A stretch of DNA of 42,390 nucleotides. Source: Candidatus Methylomirabilis sp. (GTDB lineage: Bacteria > DYJV01). Positions 2,842 through 21,814 of the stretch are shown piece by piece. The notes under the pieces are model-generated. The model saw only the letters and a program-made list of their open reading frames with translations. It searched no databases and was not told where the DNA came from. Made by a program: the position numbers and the translations under genes. How positions within the stretch are numbered: position 1 is the stretch's first letter; the number at the start of each line of letters is the position of its first letter. The stretch covers positions 13,950 through 56,339 of the forward strand of contig DYJV01000006.1 of NCBI GenBank assembly GCA_020722945.1, given 5' to 3'.

Positions 2842-4290
2842 TTAAAGAAGAGTTGTAACTGATTTCTGTAAAAATTCTATTATTGAGGATGGTAATATTC
2901 CAAGGTATAAAACACCTGCCATAGCAAGAGATAGTGCTAAAACAGTAGAAGCATTATACTCAATAGGTGCACTACTTTCACCTTTAAAATATAGGTAAAC
3001 AAGAATTCTCAAGTAGTAGTAAGCAGATATTGCACTATTTATAACAGCTAAAATAGTAAGTCCATAGAGCTTTGCATTTATTGCAGCAGAGAAAAGGTAA
3101 AATTTCCCAAGAAATCCTACTGCTGGTGGAACCCCTGCCATAGAGAACATAAATACGCACATTGCAATACCAAGAAATGGATATTTCAAACCAACTCCCT
3201 TTATATCATCGAAGTTGCTTTTACCAATTGCAGCAAGAACAGCAAAAGCTCCAACATTCATAAATCCGTAACCTAAAAGATAAAAAAGAATTGCAGAGCT
3301 GCTAATAGGAGTCCCTGCAACTATTCCAACAAGTATATAACCTGCATGTGCTATACTTGAATAAGCAAGAACTCTTTTGACATTGCTTTGATTAAGAGCA
3401 ATAAGGTTCCCACCAAACATTGTAATTACCGCAAAAAATGCTATCAATGAAGCATACTCTGAATGGTAAGATGAGAATGATGAGAGTAAAATTCTCAAAA
3501 ATGCAGAGAAAGCAGCAGCTTTTACACCTGTTGCCATAAATCCTGTGATTGGCGATGGGGCACCTTCGTAAACATCAGGTGTCCACATATGGAAAGGAAC
3601 TGTCGATACTTTAAAAAGAAAACCTGTAAAGATAAGAGCGATACCACATATAAGCATAGGATTGGTTCTGTATTCTGAATATATTGTTATGTATCTGTAT
3701 ATCTCTTTGAGATCTAACACGCCAGTAGAGCCGTAAATAAAAGCTATTCCAAGAAGGAGAAATGCAGCTGAGAATGCACCTAAAATAAAATATTTAACAG
3801 CACCTTCAACACTTTTTATATCTGTTTTCTTAAATGCAGCCAAAGAGTATATTGCCACAGACATCATCTCAAGGGCTATAAATATCATTATAAGATTAGT
3901 AGATGAGGCCATAAGCATCATTCCAACAGATGCAAAGAGTATCAATGAATAATACTCTCCCAACTCTATACCTTTTTTAACTGTGTAGTTCATTGAAGAG
4001 AGTATTGTCAAACCTGTAATAGCAAGGATAACAGCTTTAAAAAACCAAGCAAAGCCGTCAAGAACTACCATATGATTAAACGCTGTAATATTTTTCCCGA
4101 AAAGAGGAATCATAAAGAGAGATGTGAGAATTACACCTATAAAAGAGATATATCCATTGTAGGAGGTTTTTGATTTCTTAGATTCACCAAATACTCCGGC
4201 AATCAGAACAATCATAGCAAATATTGAAAGTGTAAGTTCAGGCAATATAACTATTAACTTTGGATCCGCAATAGCTTTAAAATCAATCAT
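2842..4290 (-). CDS. nuoN: NADH-quinone oxidoreductase subunit N
   Basis: A 482-residue antiporter-like subunit of the complex I membrane arm, with about 14 membrane helices. It shows the family features of NuoN: the conserved helix with KVSTVPFHMWTPDVYEGAPSPITGFMATGVKAAAF, which carries the channel lysines, and LAYSSIAHAGYILVG further on. It takes part in proton translocation. The length is normal (E. coli 485). It is the last gene of the operon, 10 bp after nuoM, with GGAGG before the ATG. Confidence 0.97.
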   Translation of the reverse strand: MIDFKAIADPKLIVILPELTLSIFAMIVLIAGVFGESKKSKTSYNGYISFIGVILTSLFMIPLFGKNITAFNHMVVLDGFAWFFKAVILAITGLTILSSMNYTVKKGIELGEYYSLILFASVGMMLMASSTNLIMIFIALEMMSVAIYSLAAFKKTDIKSVEGAVKYFILGAFSAAFLLLGIAFIYGSTGVLDLKEIYRYITIYSEYRTNPMLICGIALIFTGFLFKVSTVPFHMWTPDVYEGAPSPITGFMATGVKAAAFSAFLRILLSSFSSYHSEYASLIAFFAVITMFGGNLIALNQSNVKRVLAYSSIAHAGYILVGIVAGTPISSSAILFYLLGYGFMNVGAFAVLAAIGKSNFDDIKGVGLKYPFLGIAMCVFMFSMAGVPPAVGFLGKFYLFSAAINAKLYGLTILAVINSAISAYYYLRILVYLYFKGESSAPIEYNASTVLALSLAMAGVLYLGILPSSIIEFLQKSVTTLL

Positions 4291-4300
4291 ATTTTCCTCC

Positions 4301-5806
4301 CTATTTATCTATTACCATTGAAACAGAATGATTACATTTAATTGTGTTTATGAAATTGATTGAAGTATTATTAAACTTTTTAATAAAATATTGAGGGAAA
4401 ATTCCCATTATAAATATAAGAAGAATAAGGGGGATAAGATAACCAAACTCCCTTACATTCATATCTTTAAGCTTTTTATTACTCTCTTTATCTAATGGAC
4501 CAAAAAAGGCTCTCTGATACATCCAAAGTATATATATTGCACCAAGAACAGTAGATGTAGCAGCAATAGCAGCATAAAATATTTTAGCTTTAAAGATACC
4601 TATAAAGAGTAAAAATTCACCAATAAATCCATTTGTCCCTGGTAAACCAACAGATGCAAGCATTACTATCATAAAGAATGTTGCATAAAGAGGCATCTGT
4701 TTTGCAAGACCACTATAATCCTTTATCATGCGAGATGAACTTCTTTCAAAAAGGATTCCAAGAAGAAGGAATAGTGCTGCTGTAATCACTGTATGATTCA
4801 ACATTTGGAAAATAGCACCCTGAACTCCCTGAACAGTGAGGAGATACATCCCCAAAACAATAACTGCAAGGTGTGCAATCGATGAATATGCTATAAGTCT
4901 CTTCATATCTTTCTGAACAATGGCAATCAAAGAGATATATACTACAGCTATTAAGGTTAATGTAGCTATTAATGGTGTAAAACTTAAAGATGCCTCAGGA
5001 AATAGTGGCATTGCAAATCTATAAAATCCGTAAAGACCCATCTTTGATAAAACAGCACCGAGAAGAACTGTGCCAACAGTAGGTGCATTGACATAGGTAT
5101 CAGGCTGCCATGTATGAAATGGAATAATAGGAACCTTGATTGCAAATGCTACAAAGAAAGCAAGATAGAGCCATGTCTGTTTTGCAACAGGAATATTCAT
5201 TTTATACATTTCAAGTATTTCAAAGTTTCCTTTACCTTGTAACCAGTAAAGTGTAAATATTGCAACAAGCATAAGAACACTACCAGCCATTGTATATATG
5301 TAAAATTTTAGTGTAGAGTAAATTCTCTTATAATCACCCCATATACCTACTATAAAATACATAGGAACAAGCATAACTTCCCAAAATATATAAAATAAAA
5401 CAAGATCAAGTGCAGCTAATGACCCTATAACTCCAGATTCAACAAATAAAACACACAGATAAAACTCTCTTATATATTTTTTGATGTTCCACGCTGCAAC
5501 CAAACATATAAATGTAACAAGAGTAGTCGCAACAATAAGATACATACTCACTGCATCCACACCAAGATAATATTGGATACCAAGAGATTTTATCCACTGA
5601 TATTTTTCTATAAACTGAAATACAGATCCTTCACTTGAATAAGCAAAAAAGAGACATAATCCAAGCAGAAAGTTTAAAAAACCAAAGAAAGAACCAGTAA
5701 GCTGAACTCCACCGTCATTATCTCTTTGAAAACCGAGAAGAGTAATCGCTCCAACAAGTGGCAAAAAAATCATAATTGATAAAAGATTATTTGTTATAAT
5801 TTCCAT
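4301..5806 (-). CDS. nuoM: NADH-quinone oxidoreductase subunit M
   Basis: A 501-residue antiporter-like proton-pumping subunit of complex I with about 14 membrane helices. Diagnostic segments are FYIFWEVMLVPMYFIVGIWG, with the essential glutamate of NuoM, AIKVPIIPFHTWQPDTYVNAP, with the channel lysine, and RLIAYSSIAHLAVIVLG. The length is normal for the family (about 500). It sits between nuoL and nuoN with 20-bp and 10-bp gaps and has AAGGGGA upstream. No key residue appears to be missing, so pumping capacity should be intact. Confidence 0.97.
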   Translation of the reverse strand: MEIITNNLLSIMIFLPLVGAITLLGFQRDNDGGVQLTGSFFGFLNFLLGLCLFFAYSSEGSVFQFIEKYQWIKSLGIQYYLGVDAVSMYLIVATTLVTFICLVAAWNIKKYIREFYLCVLFVESGVIGSLAALDLVLFYIFWEVMLVPMYFIVGIWGDYKRIYSTLKFYIYTMAGSVLMLVAIFTLYWLQGKGNFEILEMYKMNIPVAKQTWLYLAFFVAFAIKVPIIPFHTWQPDTYVNAPTVGTVLLGAVLSKMGLYGFYRFAMPLFPEASLSFTPLIATLTLIAVVYISLIAIVQKDMKRLIAYSSIAHLAVIVLGMYLLTVQGVQGAIFQMLNHTVITAALFLLLGILFERSSSRMIKDYSGLAKQMPLYATFFMIVMLASVGLPGTNGFIGEFLLFIGIFKAKIFYAAIAATSTVLGAIYILWMYQRAFFGPLDKESNKKLKDMNVREFGYLIPLILLIFIMGIFPQYFIKKFNNTSINFINTIKCNHSVSMVIDK

Positions 5807-5826
5807 AATCTATTCCCCTTTAAGCC

Positions 5827-7767
5827 TTAAATATTAATAAAGTATGTAACAACAATCGCAATCCCCAATAGTAAACTCACAGCATAATATTGAATAGATC
5901 CTGTCTGGAAAAATCTCAACCCATATCCAATACCTTTTATACAATTTACAACTCCCATAACTATCCCATCAACAATAAGCTCATCCCAAACAACCCATAA
6001 AATACTCCCGAGAAAATTACCCGGTTTCTCAAAAATTGCTTCATATATCTCATCAACATACCATTTGTTGTAAAAGAGTTTGTGGAGAAGTGGAAAAGAG
6101 TTTGCAAGATTTTCAGGGATACTCTTACTCTTAACATACATTAGAAACGCAGTATAAATACCTGCTAAACCAACCAAGACAGCTATACCCATCAGCATAA
6201 ACTCTGTCCCATGAGAGAGATGAGCTGCATGGTGAGCTGAAGAGTGCCCATAATAGAAAGATGTATGGAGAAAATGTTCTATATTGTTTGAGCCACCCAA
6301 TATAGCAGGAACTCCTATATAACCACCAAAAATAGATAATATTGCAAGAACTATCATTGGGAAAGTCATAGTTGCAGGGGACTCATGAACATGCTTTGCA
6401 ACATCAGGCTTCATTCTGCTTTCACCAAAGAAAGTCATAAATAAAACTCTAAACATATAAAAAGATGTCAATCCTGCTGTAATTGTAGCAAGTGCCCATA
6501 AGAAATAATGTCCATTGGCAAATGTCTGTGCAAGTATTTCATCCTTACTAAAAAAACCTGAAAGTCCGGGAATCCCTGCAATTGCAAGACAAGCTATTAA
6601 AAATGTCCAATATGTTATTGGAATTTTATTTTTTAGACTACCCATATATCTCATATCTTGCTCACCTGATAGAGCGTGTATTACACTACCAGCACCAAGA
6701 AAGAGGAGAGCTTTAAAAAATGAATGAGTTACAATATGAAACACACCTGCTGAAAAAGCAGTAACTCCAACACCAAGAAACATATAACCAAGCTGAGAGA
6801 TTGTGGAGTATGCTATTACTTTCTTTATATCGTTTTGTGCTAATGCCATTGTAGCAGCAAAAAATGATGTTAAACAACCAACTATTGCAACAATTTCAAG
6901 AGCAAGATGACCATGAAGATAAAGAGGAGCACACCTTGCAACCATATAGACCCCTGCTGTAACCATAGTTGCAGCATGGATCAATGCACTTACAGGAGTA
7001 GGACCTGCCATCGCATCAGGCAACCATACATAAAGTGGAATTTGAGCAGATTTACCTGTAGCTCCTATAAACAGAAGTATTCCTACTGTAGTTGCTACGC
7101 CTACTGGGATTAAACTTGAATGGCTCAACACTTTATAAAAATCTAAAGAGTAGTGATTAGTAGTTTTACCTACTGCAAAAAATAGAAGAAACATTCCAAG
7201 TATAAATGCAAAATCACCTATCCTGTTAAAAACAAAAGCTTTTTTACCAGCACTTGCATAACTTTTGTTTTGAAACCAAAATCCTATAAGTAAATATGAA
7301 CAGACACCAACACCTTCCCAACCTAAAAACATTAATACAAAGTTGTTAGCTAATATCAGATTTATCATAGAAAACATAAAGAGATTAAGATATGTAAAAA
7401 ATCTATAATATCTACCTTCATCGTGCATCATATAACCAATAGAGTATATGTGTATCAAAAATCCAACACCTGTAACAAACATAGCCATTGTGATTGAAAG
7501 TGTATCAACTAAATATGCAACATTTACCCCTAACTCCCCAGAGGTAAACCAATTATAAACTACTACTTCAAAATGTCTATGGTCAGGGGGGAGAGATATG
7601 AGTTCTCTAAAAATCATCCATACAACTAAAAAAGATAGGCCTGCGGCAGAACAAGCTACCCAATGAATTATACTTTTACTGAATTTTTCAAGCTTCCACC
7701 CTAAAATGCCATTAATTAAAACACCTATTAGAGGAAAAAACGGAACTAACCAGACAAACTTAATCAT
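5827..7767 (-). CDS. nuoL: NADH-quinone oxidoreductase subunit L
   Basis: A 646-residue distal proton-pumping subunit of complex I, with about 16 membrane helices and the long C-terminal lateral helix that runs along the membrane arm. Recognisable motifs are FLGWEGVGVCSYLLIGFW (glutamate), GATGKSAQIPLYVWLPDAMAGPTPVSALIHAATMVTAGVY (lysine and the family signature) and IAYSTISQLGYMFLGVG. Length and domain order are normal. The Shine-Dalgarno sequence AAGGAG precedes the ATG, and the gap to nuoK is 11 bp. The full pump set (L, M, N) is thus present in this operon despite its altered input module. Confidence 0.97.
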   Translation of the reverse strand: MIKFVWLVPFFPLIGVLINGILGWKLEKFSKSIIHWVACSAAGLSFLVVWMIFRELISLPPDHRHFEVVVYNWFTSGELGVNVAYLVDTLSITMAMFVTGVGFLIHIYSIGYMMHDEGRYYRFFTYLNLFMFSMINLILANNFVLMFLGWEGVGVCSYLLIGFWFQNKSYASAGKKAFVFNRIGDFAFILGMFLLFFAVGKTTNHYSLDFYKVLSHSSLIPVGVATTVGILLFIGATGKSAQIPLYVWLPDAMAGPTPVSALIHAATMVTAGVYMVARCAPLYLHGHLALEIVAIVGCLTSFFAATMALAQNDIKKVIAYSTISQLGYMFLGVGVTAFSAGVFHIVTHSFFKALLFLGAGSVIHALSGEQDMRYMGSLKNKIPITYWTFLIACLAIAGIPGLSGFFSKDEILAQTFANGHYFLWALATITAGLTSFYMFRVLFMTFFGESRMKPDVAKHVHESPATMTFPMIVLAILSIFGGYIGVPAILGGSNNIEHFLHTSFYYGHSSAHHAAHLSHGTEFMLMGIAVLVGLAGIYTAFLMYVKSKSIPENLANSFPLLHKLFYNKWYVDEIYEAIFEKPGNFLGSILWVVWDELIVDGIVMGVVNCIKGIGYGLRFFQTGSIQYYAVSLLLGIAIVVTYFINI

Positions 7768-7778
7768 CCCCTACTCCT

Positions 7779-8081
7779 TTACCATTTTAAAATATTTAAT
7801 TTATCAATATTGATAGTCCCTTTATTTCTAAATATTAAATAGAAAAGAGCCAGCCCTACACCAGCTTCTGCAGCTGCTATAGCTAATACAAAAAGGACAA
7901 GCATAATACCATCTATAGATCTTAAAAAATGTGAATATGTTATGAGGACAAGATTTGCGGAATTAAACATAAGCTCTATGCACATAAAGATTACAATTGC
8001 ATTTTTCCTTACTACTACGCCAATGGCTCCAAGAGAAAATAGGAATATTCCTAAAAAAATTACTATTTCATGGCTGTGCAT
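7779..8081 (-). CDS. nuoK: NADH-quinone oxidoreductase subunit K
   Basis: A 100-residue membrane subunit (MrpC/ND4L family) with three helices. It has the two conserved membrane glutamates in the segments MCIELMFNSANLVL and AIAAAEAGVGLALFYLIFR, which belong to the proton path next to the Q-module. The size is that of typical NuoK. It is preceded by AAGGAG and packed between nuoJ and nuoL with 11-bp gaps. Confidence 0.96.
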   Translation of the reverse strand: MHSHEIVIFLGIFLFSLGAIGVVVRKNAIVIFMCIELMFNSANLVLITYSHFLRSIDGIMLVLFVLAIAAAEAGVGLALFYLIFRNKGTINIDKLNILKW

Positions 8082-8092
8082 CTATTATCTCC

Positions 8093-8605
8093 TTAATTTT
8101 TTTTATCTTTTTTCGCTAAAACAACTGCACCTGCAATAGCTGCTAAAAGTAGTAGAGATGTAACCTCAAAAGGTAGAAGGTATTTTGAGAAAAGCTCATA
8201 AGCAATATATTTAACTCCACCAAAAGTTTCTGGAATTTTCTTATAATCCAAACCTTCCCATCCAATCAATTTAGAGCAACCTGAAAGCATTGTTTGTATA
8301 AAAAGTATTACGACAAATGCCACCCCTACAATAGCAGAGAGCTGGATTTTGATCTTTTTTTTCAAATCCTCTTCTATGCTTGTGAGCATGATTACATAAA
8401 TAATGAGCATCATAATTGCTCCGGCATAAACAATAATCTGTATTGCAGCAATAAAATCAAACTCAAGTAGCAGATATATAACTGCTGTTGAGAAGAGTGT
8501 AGAAACCATCCACAAAGCACTATGAACAGGATTCCTTGCACAAACAACCATAATTCCCGAACCCATTGCAAAAACAATAGCCATAAAAAATATTATAACA
8601 GCCAT
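8093..8605 (-). CDS. nuoJ: NADH-quinone oxidoreductase subunit J
   Basis: A 170-residue ND6-family membrane subunit with five hydrophobic helices. It has the conserved helix-3 region AAIQIIVYAGAIMMLIIYVIML, which contains the pi-bulge segment of ND6/NuoJ. A C-terminal lysine-rich tail follows the last helix. AAGGAG stands six bases before the ATG; neighbours nuoI and nuoK are 10-11 bp away. Confidence 0.95.
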   Translation of the reverse strand: MAVIIFFMAIVFAMGSGIMVVCARNPVHSALWMVSTLFSTAVIYLLLEFDFIAAIQIIVYAGAIMMLIIYVIMLTSIEEDLKKKIKIQLSAIVGVAFVVILFIQTMLSGCSKLIGWEGLDYKKIPETFGGVKYIAYELFSKYLLPFEVTSLLLLAAIAGAVVLAKKDKKN

Positions 8606-8615
8606 CTCTATCTCC

Positions 8616-9095
8616 TTACTTCCCTTGATAAATATATTTTTCAGGATTTTCTAAATCTTCTTTCTCCAATTTAAACTCTTCTTTAGTATAACCAACAAAA
8701 TCATAAACTTTACTGTATTCAATTGCATCCTTGGGGCAAACTTCAACACAATATCCGCAGAAAATACATCTTAACTCATCTATCATAAATCTTGATGGGA
8801 ATCTCTCACCATCTTCTGATTCTTCTGTAACAATAGTGATTGCTTTGGGTGGACATACCGCAGCACATAGACCACATCCAACACATTTGTATTTACTGTT
8901 ACTATCTTTTATAAATCTGTGAATTCCTCTCCATCTATCAGAAATTTCTCTTCTTTCTGTAGGATACTGGATAGTTGGCGGCTTGGTGCAGAAAATTTTA
9001 AAAGTATAAGCCAAGCCTTTTAATAGAGGAGTTATCAAACCAGGATTTCTTAAAGAATCTCTTATACTATCAACAGAGTAATACCCTTTTTTCAT
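8616..9095 (-). CDS. nuoI: NADH-quinone oxidoreductase subunit I (two 4Fe-4S clusters)
   Basis: A ferredoxin-type subunit that carries clusters N6a and N6b and passes electrons from NuoG to NuoB. Two classical motifs are visible: CVGCGLCAAVCPPKAI and CIFCGYCVEVCPKDAI. The N-terminal part forms the membrane-contact helix. An upstream in-frame ATG at 9104 lies directly against the AAGG sequence, so the ATG at 9095, nine bases after AAGG, is the more likely start (159 residues, MKKGYYSVDSIRD). It is located between nuoH and nuoJ. Confidence 0.95.
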   Translation of the reverse strand: MKKGYYSVDSIRDSLRNPGLITPLLKGLAYTFKIFCTKPPTIQYPTERREISDRWRGIHRFIKDSNSKYKCVGCGLCAAVCPPKAITIVTEESEDGERFPSRFMIDELRCIFCGYCVEVCPKDAIEYSKVYDFVGYTKEEFKLEKEDLENPEKYIYQGK

Positions 9096-9112
9096 TTTAA
9101 CCATCCTTCTTT

Positions 9113-10102
9113 TTAATTGAAAAATGACATTACAATAGCTGTAACAACAAGATTAGCTAATGCAAGAGGCATCAGATATTTCCAACCAAGAGTCAATATT
9201 TGGTCTATCCTTAATCTTGGATATGTAGATCTCTCCCACACAAAGAAAAACATTAAGAGAACTGATTTTAGCAAGAACCACACTGTCCCCGGTAAAAATG
9301 GACCATGCCATCCACCAAGATAAAGAGTTGTTATTAAAGCACTAATTGTGAATAAATGGCAATACTCAGCCATAAAAAACATTGAAAATTTCATACTGCT
9401 GTATTCTACGTTAAATCCACACGCAAGCTCAGATTCTGTCTCAGGCATATCAAAAGGTGTCCTGTTTATCTCTGCAAGTGCACCTATTATTGCCAAAACA
9501 AATCCTAAAGGTTGTTTTATGATATTCCACAAATCTGCTTGTGCATCAACTATCCCACTAAAACTGAGTGTCCCACTTACCAAAACTACACCTATTATTG
9601 TTAGTGCAAATGGAAGTTCATAACTTATCATAAGAGCTGTAGCTCTCAATGCACCTACAAGACTGTATTTGTTGTAGGAAGCGTAGCCTCCAAGCACACA
9701 ACCGTATGAACCTATTGCAGCAAGAGCAAATATATATAAAACAGATACATCTATATCAGCAAGAATAAGCTTTACCTCCCTGCCAAAAAGAGTAACTTTG
9801 TCTCCAAATGGTATAACAGCAATAACTCCGAGAGCACATGCAAAACTTATCATTGGAGCAAGCACAAATACTATTTTGTCAGCTTTTTCAGGAATGACAT
9901 CCTCTTTAAAAAAAGACTTAACTGCATCTGCAAGTGGCTGCATCAATCCTTTATAACCAACTCTCATTGGACCATATCTTAATTGAAAGCCTCCAAGAAG
10001 TTTTCTTTCAAACCAGGTTGAGTAGGCTACAATAAGAAGCAATCCAACAAAAACAATCAAGTTAAGAACAACTGTAATGCTTATATCGATTAGAAAATCC
10101 AT
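9113..10102 (-). CDS. nuoH: NADH-quinone oxidoreductase subunit H
   Basis: A 329-residue membrane subunit (ND1) with eight or nine helices that forms the quinone chamber and its link to the pumps. Signature segments are STWFERKLLGGFQLRYGPMRVGYKGLMQPLADAVKSFFKED near the N-terminus and AEINRTPFDMPETESELACGFNVEYSSMKFSMFFMAEYCH in the middle, with the conserved acidic loop residues in place. This argues that the complex still reduces a membrane quinone. GGAGG lies eight bases before the ATG; nuoG ends 15 bp upstream. Confidence 0.97.
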   Translation of the reverse strand: MDFLIDISITVVLNLIVFVGLLLIVAYSTWFERKLLGGFQLRYGPMRVGYKGLMQPLADAVKSFFKEDVIPEKADKIVFVLAPMISFACALGVIAVIPFGDKVTLFGREVKLILADIDVSVLYIFALAAIGSYGCVLGGYASYNKYSLVGALRATALMISYELPFALTIIGVVLVSGTLSFSGIVDAQADLWNIIKQPLGFVLAIIGALAEINRTPFDMPETESELACGFNVEYSSMKFSMFFMAEYCHLFTISALITTLYLGGWHGPFLPGTVWFLLKSVLLMFFFVWERSTYPRLRIDQILTLGWKYLMPLALANLVVTAIVMSFFN

Positions 10103-10117
10103 TAATTAAACCTCCAC

Positions 10118-12805
10118 CTAAGCTTTCTTTATATTAACTGCACAAACTTTATACTCTGGGATCCCTGCAACAGGATCAAGAACAGAATTTGTGAGCCTAT
10201 TAATAGCTGATTCTGAAAAATGAAAACATCCAAAAACAACTCCTTCTGAGACTTTATTAGATATTTTGGCATTAGTGGACACTGAGCCTCTCCTTGAAGA
10301 GACAACTATTTTTTCACCATCAGATATTCCAAGTTTTTTAGCATCTGAAGGATTAATTTCAAGAGCAGGTGATGGACTATAATAATTGAGTGCCTTAGCC
10401 CTCCTTGTCATTGTAGCTGTATGATAATGCTCATATCTTCTCCCTGTTGTAAGAATAAAAGGATACTCTTTATCAGCAAGCTCTTTAGGAGCTCTGTTCT
10501 CTATAGGAACAAGCAAACCTTTACCCCTTGCAATCTTTGCAGTGTGAAGAACTGGTGTCCCTTGATGCTCTTCATCAGGACAAGGCCAGCATACACCATC
10601 ATTTGCTTCTATCTTACTATATGAAATTCCTGCATACTGTGGAGTAACTTTTCTTATCTCTTCAAATACTTTTTGAGCATCATCAGAGAAATTCGCTCCT
10701 AATTTAGAAGCTAACATAGAGAGTATCAATATATCCTCCTTAGCATCTCCCGGAGCATTTACAGCTTTTCTAACTCTCTGAACTCGTCTTTCAGTATTTG
10801 TAAATGTCCCCTCTTTCTCTGCAAAACAAGCAGCAGGAAGAACAACATCTGCCTTCTGAGCTGTCTCTGTAAAAAATATATCTTGAACAACAATAAAATC
10901 AAGTTTATCAAAAGCGTGCTCAGCATGAGATAAATCAGGTTCACTGAGCATAGGATTTTCACCCATAATATATAGTGCTTTAAGCTCACCTTTCTCTACC
11001 ATTTCTGGGATATCTGTAAGTGGTCTCCCTTTTTTAAGGTTGCAAGATGAACCCCATACTTCAGAGAATTTGCTACAATTCTCTTCACTATCAACAGGCT
11101 GATAACCTGGATAAACATTAGGTAAGCCACCCATATCACAAGCACCCTGAACATTGTTCTGTCCTCTGAGAGGGTTGACTCCAGCACCCTCTTTCCCAAT
11201 ATTACCGGTAATCAGTGCAAGGTTAGAGAGTGATTTTACGTTGTCGGTGCCAGTTGTATGCTGAGTAATACCCATAGCATAAAGAATGGAAGCTTTTTCA
11301 GCTTTCCCATAAAGAGTTGCGGCTTTTATCAGTTTATCTTGGGGGATACCTGTAATTTTTGCAACTTCCTCAGGTGTATATTTGAGAACTACCTCTTTAA
11401 GTCTATCAAAACCTTCTGTTCTTTCATTTATATAGGCATCATCTTGGAGATTGTTATTAATGATAACATTCATAAAACCATTTATCCAAGCTATATTGTT
11501 ACCAGGTTTGGGCTGCAACCATATATCAGCATAATCAACAAGGTCTATCCTTTTAGGATCAACAACTATCAACTTTGTTCCATGCTTCATTACAGCTTCT
11601 CTGATATAATTTGCTATAATTGGATGACACTCCGATGTGTTGGACCCTGTCACCAATATTACATCAGCTTTTGTAGTGCAATCTTTTATAGAGTTTGTCA
11701 TTGCTCCGCTTCCAAGTGTAGCAGCCAGACCGGCCACTGTAGAGCTGTGTCAGAGACGGGCACAATGGTCAATATTATTAGTCCCTATTACACTCCTAAA
11801 AAGTTTCTGAAAGAGATAATTCTCCTCATTTGTTGCTCTTGCAGAAGTCAATCCATAAATGGCATCAGCCCCATGCTTATCTTTAATATCTTTTAATTTA
11901 TTTGCAACAAGATTCAGAGCTTCTTCCCATGAAGCATCTCTGAATTTCCCATTCTCTTTTATCATAGGCTTTGTAAGTCTATCTTCACTATGGATAAAAT
12001 CGTAACCATATCTACCCTTAATACAGAGTGAACCTTCATTAACCCCCACACCATTTTTTGTTGTAACTTTTATAACTTTCCCCTGAAATACATTTAGTTC
12101 AAGTTGACAACCACAACCACAATATGAACATGTAGTCTGAACCCTATTAATAAACCATTTTCTACCTTTGAGACTTGTCAATTTGTCGGTCAAAGCTCCT
12201 GTAGGACATACTGAGAGACACTCTCCACAAGATTTACAAAGTTCTGGCTTAACAACTTGTATCTTTGCATCCCAACCTTTGCCAACAATATTTATTGCCT
12301 GATTCCCTGTTATCTCCCTACAAGCAGTAACACACCTGAGACACATTACACATCTGTCAGCCCACTGTCTTATAAAAGGGGTAGCATATTCAGGCATACC
12401 TTTTTTTGGAAGCTTCTCCTGAAACTCAACTTGTTCAATATTAAACTGGTACACTAAATCTTGAAGTGTGCACTCTCCAGCTTTGTCACAGATAGGACAA
12501 TCAAGAGGGTGATTCAACAGTATCAGCTTTAATGCATCCCTTCTCATCTGATAAAGAAGATCAGAATTTGTAATTACTTCTATATCGTTATCCACATGAG
12601 TCATACAAGCAGGAACAGGATGCTCGTAACCTTTAACCTCAACTACACACAATCTGCATGATCCTATCGGAGTAAGTCTATCGTGATAACAGAATGTAGG
12701 GATTGTTATCCCTGCAGTTTTTGCAGCTTGAAGTATAGTAGTGCCTTTTTTAACCTCTACTTCTTTACCATCAATTTTTAATTTGAACATAGCTTCTTGT
12801 GACAT
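10118..12805 (-). CDS. nuoG: Selenocysteine-containing NuoG / formate dehydrogenase alpha subunit (TGA read through at 11750-11752)
   Basis: Two apparent ORFs in one frame are joined by a single TGA, giving 895 residues with Sec352. In order: a 2Fe-2S domain (Cys39, 50, 53, 67), a His-Cys 4Fe-4S site (His99, Cys103, 106, 112), two 4Fe-4S motifs (Cys152/155/158/162 and Cys190/193/196/200), then a molybdopterin domain with its own 4Fe-4S ligands (Cys226, 229, 233, 261). Around the TGA the protein reads DHCARL-U-HSSTVAGLAA, the formate dehydrogenase active site. Partner residues are also present: Lys263 (CIKGRYG), His353 and Arg547 (PLRGQNNVQG). The Sec-to-Arg distance of 195 compares with 193 in E. 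coli FdhF (Sec140, Arg333). This is unlike ordinary NuoG, whose molybdopterin domain is vestigial. It lies between the NuoF/GltD fusion and nuoH, so it is part of the complex I operon. SD is GGGGA. Formate oxidation is inference, strongly supported. Confidence 0.93.
11720..11752 (-). promoter_or_regulatory. Bacterial SECIS element directing selenocysteine at TGA
   Basis: On the mRNA the UGA (11752-11750) is followed by 11 bases, then a 7-bp stem AGUGGCC (11738-11732) against GGCUGCU (11726-11720), closed by the loop GGUCU (11731-11727). The loop sequence is that of the E. coli fdhF SECIS, and it starts 18 bases after the UGA in both. The U that is bulged in E. coli (position 17 counted from the UGA) is also U here (11736), in a weak U-G/G-U step. 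SelB is known to recognise this loop and U. Confidence 0.9.
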
Positions 12806-12837
12806 CTATCTTCCCCTGATAAAATTTTCTTGCCTAA

Positions 12838-14778
12838 CTAAATTGCAATCATTCCCACCCTATAACATTTGAGACATCTTTCAGCCTCAGCTCTTGCTTC
12901 TGCTATAGAGTATCCTTCAGTATATTCAACAAAACTTTTTTTCCTCTCTTCGGGGGACATATGCTTAAAATGGAGTCTCTCCATTCCTGCTACTATCCCT
13001 ACATTTTCAGAGGAGTTAAAAACTTTAACTTCAGAAAGAAAATCTTCCATCTTCTCTTCTAAATTTCTATCTATCTTCTCACCTCTTAAATATTTATCAA
13101 TTTTATCAGCTGCTCTTTTTGCACCCGCACATGCTCTAATAAGAGCAGAAGGAGATGTAACCACATCACCTGCTGAGAATATACCTTTTTTGGAAGACAT
13201 ATACGTATTGGCATCTACAACTACTGTCCCCTTTCTGGTAACTTTTATATCAGAATCACCTGAAAGAACTTCAAGATTGATTGCCTGACCTATTGCAGGA
13301 ACAACAATATCACAATCAAGTATATATTCAGAACCTTTTATTGGGACAGGACTTCTCCTCCCTGAAGCATCAGGCTCACCTAATTCCATTTTGACAAGTT
13401 CGAGGCCTACAACTTTCCCATCTTTGGCAATAAGCTTTGTCGGATTTGTGAGGTATAAGAAATTGACACCCTCCTCTTCAGCTTCCTCTATCTCTTCAAT
13501 ATTTGCAGGCATTTCATTTTTGGTTCTTCTGTAAACAAGATTAACCTCATCTTTATTCATCCTTAAAGAGCATCGCACACAATCCATAGCAACATTACCA
13601 CCACCAACTACTACTACTCTTTTCCCATCAGGGTAAGGATCTACTCCACTGTTTATATCGAAAAGATATTTAACGCCTGTAATAAAACCTGCATAACCAT
13701 CATCTTCACCTGCAACACCCATTTTGGAGCTGTCATGAGCACCTATTGCAATTATAATTGCATCAAAAGTTTTCTCTAAATCTTTCAACATAATATCTTT
13801 ACCAACATAGGTATTATACTGAATCTCAACACCGAGAGACTTTATGGCTTCGGTTTCAATTTTGATGACATTTCTTGGAAGTCTATAATCAGGGATACCA
13901 ACTGCTGCCATACCACCAGTCTCTCCAAGCCTTTCAAAAATTTTAACTTTGTAACCTTTCATACCAAGATGATAAGCTGCAGTAAGACCAGCAGGTCCTC
14001 CACCTATTATCGCAATTTTTTTATTTTTAGCAGATTCTACTGATTTAAAATTAGCTACACCTTTTTTGTCAAATTCAAAATCAGCGACAAATCTTTTTAG
14101 ATGTTTAATAGCGATAGGTCCATCAAGAAGCATTCTTCTGCAGTTGTCCTCGCAAGGTTTAACACAGACTCTTCCAACAATACCTGGGAGTGGCAACCTT
14201 GTTCTTATGACATCAAGTGAATCTTGGAATCTACCCTCTCTTATGGCTTCAACATACTCTGGGATAGGTAAATGTATTGGGCAAGCATCTGTGCATGGAG
14301 CAGTAAGATGGGAATGATAGGTAAGATTTGACTTCTTTACTATACCCTTTAAAGCGGCTTTGATATCCTCTTCATAGTATTGAAGTGCATCCATAATAGG
14401 CTTCGTAACTGTCTGACCTAAATTACACCTTGACCCCTCTTTTATAGAGTTGCTTAATTTTTTTACAATTTCAAGGTCTCTATCCTTACCTTCACCATTA
14501 TATATTTTATTAAAGATATCAGCCAAGACTTTAGTCCCAACCCTGCATAAAAAACATTTACCACAAGAGTACTTTTGAGCTTCCTCCATATACGATTTGC
14601 ACAATTCAACAATATCAACATCAGAATCTAAAATAACAAAACCATCCCAGCCCATAAAAGCCTTTACTCTCTGAGAATTAAATTCTTCAGGTAGCTTCAA
14701 TCCTTCAAGATCTATAGGACCTTTGCCTCTATTGTCAACAACGTCTTCTTTCCAGCTACTAAATAGAACTTTTGCCAT
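12838..14778 (-). CDS. NuoF C-terminal Fe-S domain fused to GltD-type FAD/NAD(P) oxidoreductase
   Basis: A 646-residue fusion. Residues 1-140 match only the C-terminal part of NuoF: MGWDGFVILD, then SCGKCFLCRVG (Cys72, 75, 78) and Cys118 for the N3-type 4Fe-4S cluster. The N-terminal FMN/NADH-binding domain of NuoF is absent. From about 155 on it is a GltD/DPYD-like module: Fe-S ligands CTDAC (162, 166) and Cys205, 209, 213, an FAD motif IIGGGPAGLTAAYHLG (about 257), an NAD(P) motif VVVGGGNVAMDCVR (about 395) and a C-terminal FAD-contact SAGDVVTSPSALIRACAGAKRAA. It ends with a Cys pair (RCLKC). This module takes or gives hydride from NAD(P)H via FAD. It replaces nuoE and most of nuoF between nuoD and nuoG; the nuoD gap is only 38 bp. 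SD is GGAG. Whether it prefers NADH or NADPH is not decidable here. Confidence 0.9.
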   Translation of the reverse strand: MAKVLFSSWKEDVVDNRGKGPIDLEGLKLPEEFNSQRVKAFMGWDGFVILDSDVDIVELCKSYMEEAQKYSCGKCFLCRVGTKVLADIFNKIYNGEGKDRDLEIVKKLSNSIKEGSRCNLGQTVTKPIMDALQYYEEDIKAALKGIVKKSNLTYHSHLTAPCTDACPIHLPIPEYVEAIREGRFQDSLDVIRTRLPLPGIVGRVCVKPCEDNCRRMLLDGPIAIKHLKRFVADFEFDKKGVANFKSVESAKNKKIAIIGGGPAGLTAAYHLGMKGYKVKIFERLGETGGMAAVGIPDYRLPRNVIKIETEAIKSLGVEIQYNTYVGKDIMLKDLEKTFDAIIIAIGAHDSSKMGVAGEDDGYAGFITGVKYLFDINSGVDPYPDGKRVVVVGGGNVAMDCVRCSLRMNKDEVNLVYRRTKNEMPANIEEIEEAEEEGVNFLYLTNPTKLIAKDGKVVGLELVKMELGEPDASGRRSPVPIKGSEYILDCDIVVPAIGQAINLEVLSGDSDIKVTRKGTVVVDANTYMSSKKGIFSAGDVVTSPSALIRACAGAKRAADKIDKYLRGEKIDRNLEEKMEDFLSEVKVFNSSENVGIVAGMERLHFKHMSPEERKKSFVEYTEGYSIAEARAEAERCLKCYRVGMIAI

Positions 14779-14816
14779 TGATAGTTCTCCTTAAATTTAT
14801 ATTCAAAATAAAAATC

Positions 14817-15986
14817 CTATCTATCTATCTCTCCTAAAACTATATCCAAGCCGCCAATTGCTGTGATTATATCAGAAAACATATAACCCTCTATCATAGC
14901 AGGCAAAGCTGAAACATGTATGTAACATGGTGATTTTATTTTGAGTCTGTAAGGCTTACTACCTCCGTCACTATAAATATAATACCCAATCTCACCCTTA
15001 GAACCCTCTACACTTTGATAAACTTCACCCTTAGGTGCATTAAACCCTGATAGAACAAACTTAAACCTTCTGATAAGTGCATCTATATCTGTCCTCACCT
15101 TTTCTTGAGGAGGGTTAAGATAAGGAACATCTGCCATAATTGGTCCATCGGGTAAATTTTCTATTGCTTGCCTTACTATATTGATTGATTGCCTAAACTC
15201 TTCCATTCTACAAAAATATCTATCAAATGCATCTCCGCGTGTCCCAACAGGTATCTGAAAATCAAAATCTTGATAACTGCTGTAAGGAAAAGCCTTTCTA
15301 ACATCATAATTAACCCCTGAAGCTCTTCCAACTGCACCAGTAAGACCAAGGTTAATAGCTTCATCGTGCGATATTACTGCTAAATTCTCGTTTCTCTGCC
15401 TCCAGATTATATTGTCAGTGAGAAGAGTCTCATAACCATCTATCTTCTCAGGAAACATTTTACAAAAATATTTGACTCGTTCTATAAATTTGTCAGTAAC
15501 ATCTTTGGCAACCCCACCTATCCTCATATATGTAGGAGTCAATCTTCCACCACTTGCTTCCTCTATACACTCCATAATAATTTCTCTGTCAGCAAATGTA
15601 TAAAAAACAACTGTCATTGCACCAAGGTCAAGAGCAGAACTACCTATCCATAAATGATGACCCATAATCCTTGAAAGCTCTGAAATTATAACTCTTAAAT
15701 ATTGTGCTCTTTTCGGAACTTCAATTCCAAGAAGTTTCTCAACCGCCAAAACATATCCGAGATTATTTAAACTTGCTGCAGTATAATCTAACCTGTCTGT
15801 AAGTGGTATTACCTGATGAAAAGTAAAATCTTCGGCTATCTTCTCTATACCCCTATGAAGTTGACCTATAACAGGAGTAGCTTTTACTACTTTCTCACCT
15901 TCGAGCTCCAACTCAATCCTCAAAACCCCATGCGTAGATGGGTGGTGAGGTCCCATATGTAATTTCCAGGTTTTCTCTGCTGCCAT
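14817..15986 (-). CDS. nuoD: NADH-quinone oxidoreductase subunit D
   Basis: A 389-residue 49-kDa-type Q-module subunit, homologous to the large subunit of NiFe hydrogenases but without the nickel-binding cysteines. Recognisable are MGPHHPSTHGVLRIELELEGE at the N-terminus (the His-bearing quinone-site loop), QLHRGIEKIAEDFTF, GSSALDLGAMTVVFYTFADRE and the C-terminal FSDIITAIGGLDIVLGEIDR. Length and ends are typical of free-standing NuoD, not a NuoCD fusion. It is 27 bp downstream of nuoC. Confidence 0.97.
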   Translation of the reverse strand: MAAEKTWKLHMGPHHPSTHGVLRIELELEGEKVVKATPVIGQLHRGIEKIAEDFTFHQVIPLTDRLDYTAASLNNLGYVLAVEKLLGIEVPKRAQYLRVIISELSRIMGHHLWIGSSALDLGAMTVVFYTFADREIIMECIEEASGGRLTPTYMRIGGVAKDVTDKFIERVKYFCKMFPEKIDGYETLLTDNIIWRQRNENLAVISHDEAINLGLTGAVGRASGVNYDVRKAFPYSSYQDFDFQIPVGTRGDAFDRYFCRMEEFRQSINIVRQAIENLPDGPIMADVPYLNPPQEKVRTDIDALIRRFKFVLSGFNAPKGEVYQSVEGSKGEIGYYIYSDGGSKPYRLKIKSPCYIHVSALPAMIEGYMFSDIITAIGGLDIVLGEIDR

Positions 15987-16013
15987 TTTATCTTCCTTTT
16001 CTAAAAATATTTA

Positions 16014-16532
16014 TTAGTAATTCAAAACATTATCTTTGATAGTTTCTGGATTCCACTGCTTATCAAAATCGTAACCTTTAACAGGGAAATCTTTTCTTAA
16101 AGGATGATATTCGTAACCTGGCCACATTAACAATCTTCTGAGGTCAGGATGTCCGTCAAATTTGATACCAAACATATCAAAAACTTCCCTTTCAGGAAAA
16201 TTAGCAGATTTCCATACAGAGTAAACAGAAGGAACAGATTCACCATCGTTAACCTCTGTTTTTAAGATTAACCTTTCATCTTTCTCTATTGAAACAAGTA
16301 TATACGCTATATCAAAACGAGGTGTCCTACCTTTTGGAAGAAAATCAACAGCAGTAATATCAACAAGAAGATTAAATTTTAAAGAATTTTCTTTAAATAA
16401 ATATTGTGCAATATCAAGCAATTTATCTTTTTTGACTTTAACTATCGGTTCACCTCTAAACTCTTCAGCTTCAATAACTTCATTTTTAAACTTCTTTTTG
16501 ATTGCATCTATTATTTTTTTTGCTTGAGCCAT
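16014..16532 (-). CDS. nuoC: NADH-quinone oxidoreductase subunit C
   Basis: A 172-residue 30-kDa-type subunit of the peripheral arm. The signature region is [43 protein letters not shown], preceded by the conserved beta-strand [12 protein letters not shown]. It packs against NuoD and stabilises the Q-module. It is a separate gene, 17 bp after nuoB. No unusual insertions are seen; the N-terminal 30 residues are lysine-rich and variable, as is usual. Confidence 0.95.
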
Positions 16533-16549
16533 TGTTAAACCCTACCCTA

Positions 16550-17092
16550 TTATGCTATTTTTATTTTTCTTGCTTCACAATATTTAGCAACTTCTTCATT
16601 AGTGATTACATCAGGCAACTCTTTAAATCTACCCTTTTCTATCTTCTCCTGCAACTTCATAATCCCTGCAAGCAAAGCCTCTGGTCTCGGTGGACATCCT
16701 GGGATATAAACATCAACAGGAATAACTTGGTCAACACCCTGAACAACTGCGTAACTTTGGAATATACCTCCACACGAAGCACATGCACCCATAGCTAAAA
16801 CCCATTTAGGTTCAGAAATTTGCTCATAAATTGTTTTGACCATAGGAGACATCTTTTTGGTAAGGGTCCCTGCAACGATCATAAGATCAGATTGTCTCGG
16901 AGATGGTCTGAAAACCTCAGAACCAAATCTTGCAATATCGTAATGTGAAAGACTTGTAGCCATCATTTCAATAGCACAGCATGCAAGACCAAATGTACAT
17001 GGCCAAATAGAATTTTTCCTTCCCCAGTTAACAAGCTTCTCTAATGTTGTAGTAACAACTGAACCCTCTGGCAATAAATATTCTAATCCCAT
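16550..17092 (-). CDS. nuoB: NADH-quinone oxidoreductase subunit B
   Basis: The PSST-type subunit that holds the terminal 4Fe-4S cluster N2 next to the quinone. It has the adjacent cysteines in [12 protein letters not shown], then [26 protein letters not shown] and the last ligand in [14 protein letters not shown]. An in-frame ATG at 17113 exists, but AAGGAG lies seven bases before the ATG at 17092, which starts the usual [10 protein letters not shown] sequence (180 residues). With that start the gene overlaps the nuoA stop by 10 bp, indicating translational coupling. Confidence 0.96.
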
Positions 17093-17460
17093 TCTAATGC
17101 TCCTTTTTTCCATACATATATAAAACCTACTAAAAGTATAAACATAAAAACAAACATCTCAATTAAACCAAAAAAACCGAGCTGTTTAAAGTAAACTGCC
17201 CACGGATACATAAAAACACACTCTATATCAAACAGAAGAAAGAGAAGTGCAAAGATGTAATACTTAACATCAAAAGAGTACCATATCCTTCCTTGTGTAG
17301 GGAGACCGCTCTCATAAGTAACATCTTTGTATGGATTATGCCTGCGGGGACCTAACAGTGCAGATAAAAAAAGCATCGCAACAGCTGCAAAAGCACCTAA
17401 AAATAAAATAATAAAAACTGAAACATAACTTCCAAGATAGGATGTAATTGAAGGTGTCAT
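17083..17460 (-). CDS. nuoA: NADH-quinone oxidoreductase subunit A
   Basis: A 125-residue ND3-family membrane subunit with three helices. The conserved loop after helix 1 is present (the region around [15 protein letters not shown]), as is the helix-2 segment [23 protein letters not shown] with its conserved acidic residues. It is the first gene of the nuo operon. AAGGGG lies six bases before the ATG, and a candidate promoter lies about 40-70 bases upstream. Confidence 0.96.
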
Positions 17461-20363: not shown

Positions 20364-21167
20364 TTAATTATTTATTTTGTGTAAAGGAAAAAATAACTCT
20401 AATTTTACTCGCTGATCTGGAGATTTAGCAAAAGTATATACAGCACCATAAAAATCAAGGATAGATTTAATAAGGTTAAAATTAGCTGTATAGTAGTTAT
20501 ATTTTTCAACATTTCTAATACTACTATCATCTCTTTGATCAAAAAACAACTCATATTGAAGATAATATGGACACTCAACACTGAAAAGAAGATATTTGCC
20601 AGCATTGAAAGATCTTAGATGAATGGCTCTCTCTTCAATGTTTTGGTTAAACTTTACCAATTTGACAAAGTAAAGAAATATTTCAAATATAGCTAATTTT
20701 AAAATTTGATCAAAAATTTTCAGTTCAGAAGTTTCTTGAGAAAAATCTTTAAGGAACTTGATATCTCTAAAATAATTAAACTTCAGCTTTATTAAAACAT
20801 CATCAACTATATCAGACAGACTCTTTTTAATCAATTGTGAAGCTGATGACAAAAAAAGTGAATCAGTAAGATCAGAAACAATATCAGCAATAAGGGTTGT
20901 GCCCTGAAACATCTCACCCCCTAAAGTTTTTAGGGAGTTTAAGATACTTAAAACTTCTCTTTTGGAATCAGTATTATCTATATCTTCAAGTAAATCAAAT
21001 GTTTTTTCAACGTATAGAGGAATAATTTCAGCATTTCCCCTTATATAAGTAAGTGGGGAATTAATATCATGAGTAACAGAAGACAACAACCTTCCTAAAA
21101 GATAGAAATCAATGGTTTGATTTAAAATTTGAAGTATAGACGCCTCTTTACTCTTATCAAATGACAT
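20364..21167 (-). CDS. Histidine-kinase-like protein with degenerate ATPase domain
   Basis: A 267-residue soluble protein. Residues about 20-110 form a HisKA-like helical hairpin with an H-box variant, SSVTHDINSPLTYIRGNAE (His33). The C-terminal half follows the secondary-structure order of a HATPase_c domain and ends like one (IKSILDFYGAVYTFAKSPDQRVKLELFFPL), but the N box, the G1 DxG and the G2 GxGxG are all absent. It should therefore not bind ATP in the usual way. Phosphotransferases such as ChpT share this plan (dimerisation helices with His plus a dead ATPase fold), which suggests relay to or from the neighbouring receiver. No sensor or membrane segment is present, and no good Shine-Dalgarno sequence is seen. 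Confidence 0.7.
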   Translation of the reverse strand: MSFDKSKEASILQILNQTIDFYLLGRLLSSVTHDINSPLTYIRGNAEIIPLYVEKTFDLLEDIDNTDSKREVLSILNSLKTLGGEMFQGTTLIADIVSDLTDSLFLSSASQLIKKSLSDIVDDVLIKLKFNYFRDIKFLKDFSQETSELKIFDQILKLAIFEIFLYFVKLVKFNQNIEERAIHLRSFNAGKYLLFSVECPYYLQYELFFDQRDDSSIRNVEKYNYYTANFNLIKSILDFYGAVYTFAKSPDQRVKLELFFPLHKINN

Positions 21168-21178
21168 AAAAATGAAAG

Positions 21179-21814
21179 TTATTTATTAAGCTGGAAATAC
21201 TCTAAAGCCTTTTTAATCTCTACAGTAGAAACAGACTCTTCAACAGATATACTCTTTAAGCTGCTCCCATAGGTAGGCTTTACACTCATCCAACTATCAA
21301 GGATATCATGAGGGATAAAATTATATTTAAAAATCATAATATTAGGGGTATATGAGAAATTAGAGAAAAATTCTTTCTTTAATGATGGGAGTTTCTTCTC
21401 TGCTAAAGTGGTGAATACATCATCTGGAGCCTTAATATTCAATACAACCATAATTTCTGAATCTTTATTGACAAGAATAGAAAATATCTGATCAATATAT
21501 GATTCAAGAGAGGAAACAATAAATTTTTTAAATTCAAAAACAAGCTGCTTTAGTTTGGCTGTAAAGATAGGGACAATAATCTCTCTTACAAAGAAATTAT
21601 CATAATTAAGCTGATAACCTTTGCTATTTTTGTAGGTTACAATGCCTATATCAATAAGCTCTTTAAGTGAAAGCAAACTTGATCTTGGGCTAATATCAGC
21701 ATATTTACAGATATAGTTAGCGGAGTAGATACCTACATTGTTAGAAAGGAAATTGAGTATTTTAACTTTTGACCTTGAAGCTAATGCTTTTTCTATAATT
21801 TTTTCATTTTCCAT
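21179..21814 (-). CDS. Winged-helix protein, first gene of signalling cassette
   Basis: A 211-residue protein. Residues 1-75 look like a winged helix: ALASRSKVKILNFLSNNVGIYSANYICKYADISPRSSLLSLKELIDIGIVTYKNSKGYQLNYDN, a pattern seen in ArsR/MarR-like regulators. The remainder (about 85-200) is helical, then has a segment around SEIMVVLNIKAPDDV in the place where winged-helix/nucleotidyltransferase fusions carry their nucleotidyltransferase fold, but the catalytic GS and DxD motifs are missing. It is 11 bp upstream of the kinase-like gene. GGATGA precedes the ATG. It may be the DNA-binding output of the cassette; function not recognised. Confidence 0.65.
   Translation of the reverse strand: MENEKIIEKALASRSKVKILNFLSNNVGIYSANYICKYADISPRSSLLSLKELIDIGIVTYKNSKGYQLNYDNFFVREIIVPIFTAKLKQLVFEFKKFIVSSLESYIDQIFSILVNKDSEIMVVLNIKAPDDVFTTLAEKKLPSLKKEFFSNFSYTPNIMIFKYNFIPHDILDSWMSVKPTYGSSLKSISVEESVSTVEIKKALEYFQLNK

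Follow-up and report, generated by a model that had tools for sequence, protein, structure and literature searches.

A flavoprotein fusion and a selenocysteine formate dehydrogenase probably take the place of NuoE, NuoF and NuoG in a complex I operon

Which donor feeds a complex I whose operon has lost nuoE and the FMN domain of NuoF? The question is raised by a stretch of 42,390 nucleotides (hereafter the window) from a metagenome-assembled genome of 2.5 Mb in 184 contigs (98% completeness, 5.8% contamination), in which 13 genes in the order nuoA-B-C-D, FUS, FDH, nuoH-I-J-K-L-M-N occupy positions 2842-17460 of a single (minus) strand, separated by gaps of 8-38 bp apart from one 31-bp overlap. 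Throughout, FUS denotes a 646-aa N3/GltD fusion and FDH an 895-aa selenocysteine formate dehydrogenase. Our answer, to which we give a probability of roughly 60%, is that these two genes form a module that replaces NuoE-NuoF-NuoG and makes this a formate-fed, proton-pumping complex I with an NAD(P)H port.

The membrane arm and the quinone-reducing core are those of complex I. All on the minus strand, nuoA (17083..17460; PF00507), nuoB (16550..17113; PF01058), nuoC (16014..16532; PF00329) and nuoD (14817..15986; PF00346) lie on one side of the FUS-FDH pair, and on the other lie nuoH (9113..10102; PF00146), nuoI (8616..9104; recognized by Pfam and by the cysteines of two [4Fe-4S] motifs) and nuoL (5827..7767; PF00361/PF00662), together with nuoJ (8093..8605), nuoK (7779..8081), nuoM (4301..5806) and nuoN (2842..4290), which were assigned from gene order and from matches to syntenic copies. 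Residue inspection revealed the N2 cysteines of NuoB (C45, C46, C111 or C114, and C140) and the quinone-site motif HHPSTHG of NuoD, and found NiFe ligands absent from the window NuoD. The N2 tandem cysteines, the NuoD motif and the presence of NuoH, NuoL, NuoM and NuoN characterize the core as that of a quinone-reducing complex I. Elsewhere in the window, a histidine kinase (with a Tll0287-like sensor) and response regulator pair at 91-2341 is encoded on the opposite strand and directed towards the end of the nuo operon, and two genes without a Pfam match (20364-21814) sit between a response-regulator gene and an FAD-dependent oxidoreductase (DAO) gene.

FUS (12838..14778, minus strand) stands where nuoE and nuoF would be expected, and its assignment as a NuoF N3 domain joined to a GltD/StnC-type FAD-NAD(P)H module draws on Pfam, matches to the StnC, NfnA and PreT chains of the PDB, Foldseek and synteny. 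Since only 38 bp separate nuoD from FUS there is no room for nuoE, as the sequence-only reading of this locus had claimed. The N3-type cysteines that it saw retained are likewise in place (C72, C75, C78 and C118, in the NADH_4Fe-4S domain of residues 59-141; 14356..14604; PF10589, E 4e-23). Behind them come the Fer4_20 double-cluster domain (residues 159-238; 14065..14304; PF14691, 1.7e-24), with C162, C166, C205, C209, C213 and K228, the FAD and NAD(P)H Rossmann domains (Pyr_redox_2, residues 254-549; 13132..14019; PF07992, 2.9e-31) and, recognized by alignment, a C-terminal RCLKC cluster motif (residues 634-638, C635/C638; 12865..12879), all on the minus strand. A Pfam search found no Complex1_51K (FMN) domain in FUS, and neither that domain nor NuoE in the operon, so that a canonical NADH module is lacking there; the proposed exchange of the FMN/NADH domain for a GltD-type flavoprotein with its own cysteines, and with it a rebuilt input arm, is thus borne out.

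The flavoprotein part of FUS resembles StnC more closely than NfnB. Its nearest solved chains are the large subunits of Stn/Nfn-ABC (9bov, 9n5u, 8oh5), followed by PreT and NfnB, and although the predicted fold is of moderate quality (pLDDT 67), Foldseek also places the GltD part nearest Nfn-ABC/StnC. FUS, like StnC, has its cluster motif (RCLKC) at the C terminus, while NfnB and PreT have theirs at the N terminus; the five Fer4_20 cysteines are invariant across 48 relatives; and Arg299 aligns with a conserved arginine that StnC shares. Most telling is Lys228, which aligns with K170 of StnC at a position where NfnB and PreT have Glu; of the 48 relatives, 44 have Lys there and 3 have Arg. FUS thus possesses the FAD and NAD(P)H Rossmann folds, the Fer4_20 domain and the C7-cluster lysine of StnC/GltD flavoproteins, and a lysine instead of the proximal-cluster glutamate ligand that goes with bifurcation in NfnB. 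The flavin of StnC has been shown not to bifurcate by itself (PMC10482914), and the shared lysine makes a simple NAD(P)H port the likeliest role for FUS. From its likeness to StnC/Nfn and from a YRR motif we would guess that it favours NADP over NAD.

The sequence-only reading was right about the fusion, but it missed that the adjoining 'nuoG' is a selenocysteine formate dehydrogenase. This gene (10118..12805, minus strand) encodes 895 residues when its in-frame TGA (11750..11752) is read as Sec352, within the motif HCARL-U-HSSTVAGL, and its product matches both HDCR FdhF and FdsA. It scores 880 bits against TIGR01591 (Fdh-alpha; cutoff 666) and 453 bits against TIGR01973 (NuoG; cutoff 470), that is, over the first cutoff and under the second, with the N-terminal cluster domains present. 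The active site has Sec352-His353 and LRGQNNVQGACDMG, the latter for the RGQNNVQG arginine motif; every ligand of the 2Fe-2S, His-Cys3, double ferredoxin and Mo-proximal clusters has its counterpart in the alignment with Rhodobacter capsulatus FdsA, and the Mo/W domain aligns with HDCR FdhF. By family score and ligands the protein is predicted to be a formate dehydrogenase. A Tat signal was absent from its N terminus as read from the sequence, which fits a cytoplasmic N-module.

Sequence and relatives both point to selenocysteine at the TGA. Folding and conservation identify a bacterial SECIS-like hairpin with a GGUCUG apical loop at 11708..11745 (minus strand), a hairpin with this loop follows the TGA in all seven Sec loci that were folded, and TGA occupies the same codon in three further loci (L004, L119 and L005). 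The in-frame UGA and its SECIS are matched by SelB and tRNA-Sec, which are encoded in the genome, as is FdhD, each scoring over its cutoff; no second Fdh-alpha over the cutoff was found there. We considered a frameshift or a pseudogene 'nuoG' and ruled these out, given that the TGA coincides exactly with the catalytic codon, is retained in relatives and is accompanied by the hairpin. Comparison with two relatives (NG86) gives dN 0.13-0.17 and dS 1.4-1.7 for FDH, both halves of which are kept, and for FUS and FDH together dN 0.13-0.19 and dS 1.4-3.3 (saturated), as expected under purifying selection.

These two relatives have the same operon including the TGA. One lies on a contig labelled Bacteroidales (L004), which may be misbinned, and is 80% identical in both FUS and FDH; the other (G001, the only genome of the same order among the genomes searched) is 74% identical in FUS and 78% in FDH, its piece spanning nuoD to nuoM, with nuoD also present on another contig. 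The syntenic orthologs of FUS in these two genomes indicate that the fusion is genuine. More widely, 62 of 386 genomes (mostly one per family) encode proteins that match both the N3 and the GltD parts at 1e-30, in two forms: one of ~1,000-1,080 aa that includes the complete NuoF, and one of ~640-790 aa that lacks the FMN domain. Proteins of the long form, with the whole NuoF including its FMN domain joined to GltD (~780-1,060 aa), were seen at L123-L127, L179-L182 and L128, the last of which adjoins nuoABCD in G022.

The FMN-less form is found beside or inside nuo genes in eight genomes (G012, G160, G299, G335, G319, G025, G172 and G310) and at L006. In G012, G299 and G319 the nuo operon holds FUS together with NuoG, and these three genomes, like G001, have no Complex1_51K domain in a genome-wide search. 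In G036 and G315 FUS and a NuoG-like gene lie away from an 11-gene nuoABCDHIJKLMN operon (operon and separate pair at L257 and L120 in G036, and at L263 and L164 in G315), possibly as an N-module acting in trans. By NCBIfam the partners in G012, G335, G025, G036 (in trans) and G315 score as NuoG and not as Fdh-alpha, and no HCAR-U/C motif is present in those NuoG-like partners whose Sec position was aligned. Since the partners so examined score as NuoG and those aligned lack the motif, the window lineage is, among the loci seen here, alone in combining a nuo operon with an intact FDH (the sequence of L006 ends before the active site). Judged by gene content, the FMN-less FUS with its NuoG or FDH partner appears as a recurrent two-gene N-module across families.

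Several variants of these clusters were also seen. In six FMN-less fusions (L120, L169, L170, L173, L175 and L177) glycine stands in for the third N3 cysteine (CxxCxxG), and the cluster at the N3 site may therefore be altered. At L121, L174 and L176 FUS-NuoG is followed directly by nuoJKLMN, with nuoA-D, nuoH and nuoI not in the cluster, and in the nuo operon of G319 two tandem NuoG-like genes come after FUS (L169:3612-8349). Finally, FUS is paired with a Sec-FDH in G384, G120 and G265, where no NuoD was found at 1e-100; the stand-alone pairs (L167, L165, L166 and L005) are apparently undescribed in the literature we searched, and each is predicted to be, probably, a soluble FMN-less formate:NAD(P)+ oxidoreductase.

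In the FUS tree the window group joins the stand-alone Sec-FDH group, L005, G036 and G315 with strong support (100/99), and closer pairing among them is weak (83/77). For the N termini of the G subunits, the tree unites most partners of FMN-less FUS in a single clade (98/94) that excludes L005 and G311, and the window group forms a subclade with G265, G120 and G384 (99/97). The agreement of the two trees suggests that FUS and the G subunit behave as one inherited two-gene module. The window NuoD is about equally close to many NuoD proteins, and as these come mostly from standard nuoABCD-E-F-G-HIJKLMN operons, the simplest reading would be that E-F-G gave way in place to a FUS-FDH module; elsewhere, other FUS-NuoG pairs may have taken the opposite course and lost the FDH motif.

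As the slot of NuoG is occupied by a selenocysteine formate dehydrogenase, the likely fuel of the complex has changed. Most likely, judging by its genes, the complex is an oxidoreductase that pumps protons while passing electrons from formate (and NADPH) to menaquinone, with exchange between formate and NADP+ as well; we infer its physical assembly, activity, direction of flow, NADP preference and proton stoichiometry. Formate would be oxidized at the Mo/W-Sec site of FDH, and its electrons would pass from the proximal [4Fe-4S] cluster through the ferredoxin-type clusters to the NuoG-type chain, and on through N6a/N6b (NuoI) and N2 (NuoB) to menaquinone, with NuoH, NuoL, NuoM and NuoN pumping protons. 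FUS would enter the same chain through its N3 cluster as a second port, at which its FAD and NAD(P)H (NADP(H) being the probable partner) would pass electrons back and forth without bifurcation. For this fuller scheme, in which direct formate input at the NuoG position drives pumping and menaquinone reduction while the non-bifurcating FAD/NADP(H) port exchanges electrons among formate, NADPH and quinone, we see a little better than even odds. The genome encodes a prenyltransferase near MqnP, NapA with NapH, a PhsA-like enzyme and Rnf, and the first three make menaquinone respiration with nitrate or sulfur compounds plausible.

The weak point of a formate-fed complex I is assembly, as stand-alone pairs exist without complex I; contamination of the assembly and the moderate fold model of FUS also count against it. 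One could instead suppose that FUS and FDH make a soluble formate:NADP+ oxidoreductase lying by chance inside the nuo operon, the complex I itself being an 11-subunit enzyme of the ferredoxin type. Pairs outside nuo operons, in genomes that lack a NuoD at the threshold given above, suggest that FUS-FDH can probably work in soluble form, a NuoG-like N terminus is also possessed by soluble formate dehydrogenases such as FdsA, and ferredoxin should be available since the genome encodes Rnf and a pyruvate oxidoreductase. We nonetheless consider this reading unlikely, for the pair fills the exact E-F-G slot from nuoD to nuoH in three genomes, and the occurrence of FUS with motif-less NuoG in nuo operons of genomes without any other 51K domain would be difficult to account for if FUS did not serve complex I. 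Ordinary NADH dehydrogenase activity, with complex I completed in trans from one of two nuoE/HydB-type loci (C50 or C146), is scarcely credible to us. A complete nuoEF elsewhere would have spoken against the rebuilt arm, yet the genome-wide search returned four Complex1_51K matches and no canonical nuoF: two were HydB-type, one was RnfC in an rnf operon and one was PduS/RnfC-like (the names of the RnfC and PduS/RnfC-like proteins rest on their sequences and neighbouring genes). The HydB-type proteins (620-634 aa) carry extra C-terminal ferredoxin domains, neither locus is near nuo genes and one lies behind pyruvate oxidoreductase genes, and G001 has the same operon with no 51K domain at all. 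A possible second complex I (C41) was set aside, as its protein shares only 22% identity with NuoD and has antiporter-like genes for neighbours; it is probably a relative of group-4 hydrogenases.

The direction of flow and the role of the flavin allow two further readings. The complex might work mainly as an NADPH:menaquinone oxidoreductase through FUS, or run in reverse, with FDH reducing CO2 to formate at the expense of NADPH or the proton-motive force. FUS does resemble the NADPH-binding module of StnC/Nfn, and FDH is closest to HDCR FdhF; Mo/W-Sec formate dehydrogenases of this kind are CO2 reductases. Electron transfer from menaquinol to CO2 is, however, steeply uphill (about -74 versus -420 mV; PMC9304861), and we rate this pair of readings as quite improbable. 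Electron bifurcation at the GltD FAD, coupling ferredoxin, NAD(P)H and quinone as in NfnB, had been hinted at by the sequence-only reading from the fold family that FUS and NfnB share. This we hold to be very improbable: the C7-cluster position carries the lysine of non-bifurcating StnC and not the glutamate of NfnB, and the FMN bifurcating core (HydB) is not in the operon.

If a formate-fed, pumping complex I is indeed encoded here, respiration of formate (about -420 mV) would gain a proton-pumping entry at which the driving force towards menaquinone exceeds that available from NADH. More generally, a GltD-type NAD(P)H port has replaced the FMN port in complex I operons of several lineages, some of them without any NuoF-type domain, and annotation pipelines would list such operons as complex I lacking some subunits and having a disrupted nuoG. 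The long-standing view of NuoG is that of a formate dehydrogenase deprived of its active site; a nuo operon whose NuoG slot holds a formate dehydrogenase with an intact motif opens the modular origin of complex I to a direct test. In the literature searched we found no account of FUS or of a formate dehydrogenase in the place of NuoG in a quinone-reducing complex I; as the search covered open-access papers, this is weak evidence of novelty.

Compared with the canonical 14-subunit complex I (NuoA-N), the window operon shares nuoA-D and nuoH-N, their order, the N2 cysteines and the quinone-site motif of NuoD, but it lacks NuoE and the FMN domain of NuoF, of which the N3 domain alone persists, fused to GltD, and its NuoG is replaced by the Sec formate dehydrogenase. 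An exchanged input module is also the hallmark of Nuo-Bfu, a complex I with HydBC-type bifurcating input predicted for Deferribacteres, Geobacter and Nitrospirae (PMC9304861). Nuo-Bfu keeps the FMN protein BfuB along with BfuC, whereas the window operon has neither a 51K domain nor nuoE, and formate is its likely donor. In Epsilonproteobacteria/Campylobacterota nuoEF is replaced within the nuo operon by NuoXY (PMC6682613), described as different genes whose products use flavodoxin/ferredoxin. StnC/NfnA of the Stn (Nfn-ABC) transhydrogenase (8oh5, 9bov, 9n5u) shares with FUS the GltD-like FAD module, the C-terminal cluster motif, the K170-type lysine and a NuoG/FdhF-like neighbour; in StnC, however, the GltD module interrupts a NuoG-like chain whose FDH domain is dead, and this module feeds StnB, while in the window it is fused to the N3 domain and FDH, its motif intact, has a gene of its own. 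StnC-like single proteins (2Fe-2S, GltD and FDH) at L039:9737-13765 and L042 differ from StnC in that their FDH part keeps a cysteine active-site motif, HCARLCHAPTVAG. The FdsABG-type NAD-dependent formate dehydrogenase (PDB 6tg9) matches the window FDH in its alpha subunit, NuoG-like N terminus and all cluster ligands, but there FdsB/FdsG bind FMN and NAD, and in the window FUS takes their place and the genes lie inside a nuo operon. Lastly, formate dehydrogenase on a complex I-like membrane arm is known from formate hydrogenlyase (PMC9474812) and has been proposed for FDH-Ehr (PMC6349859); the former ends in a NiFe hydrogenase and the latter in the NiFe-less Ehr, whereas the core encoded in the window is that of a quinone-reducing complex I.
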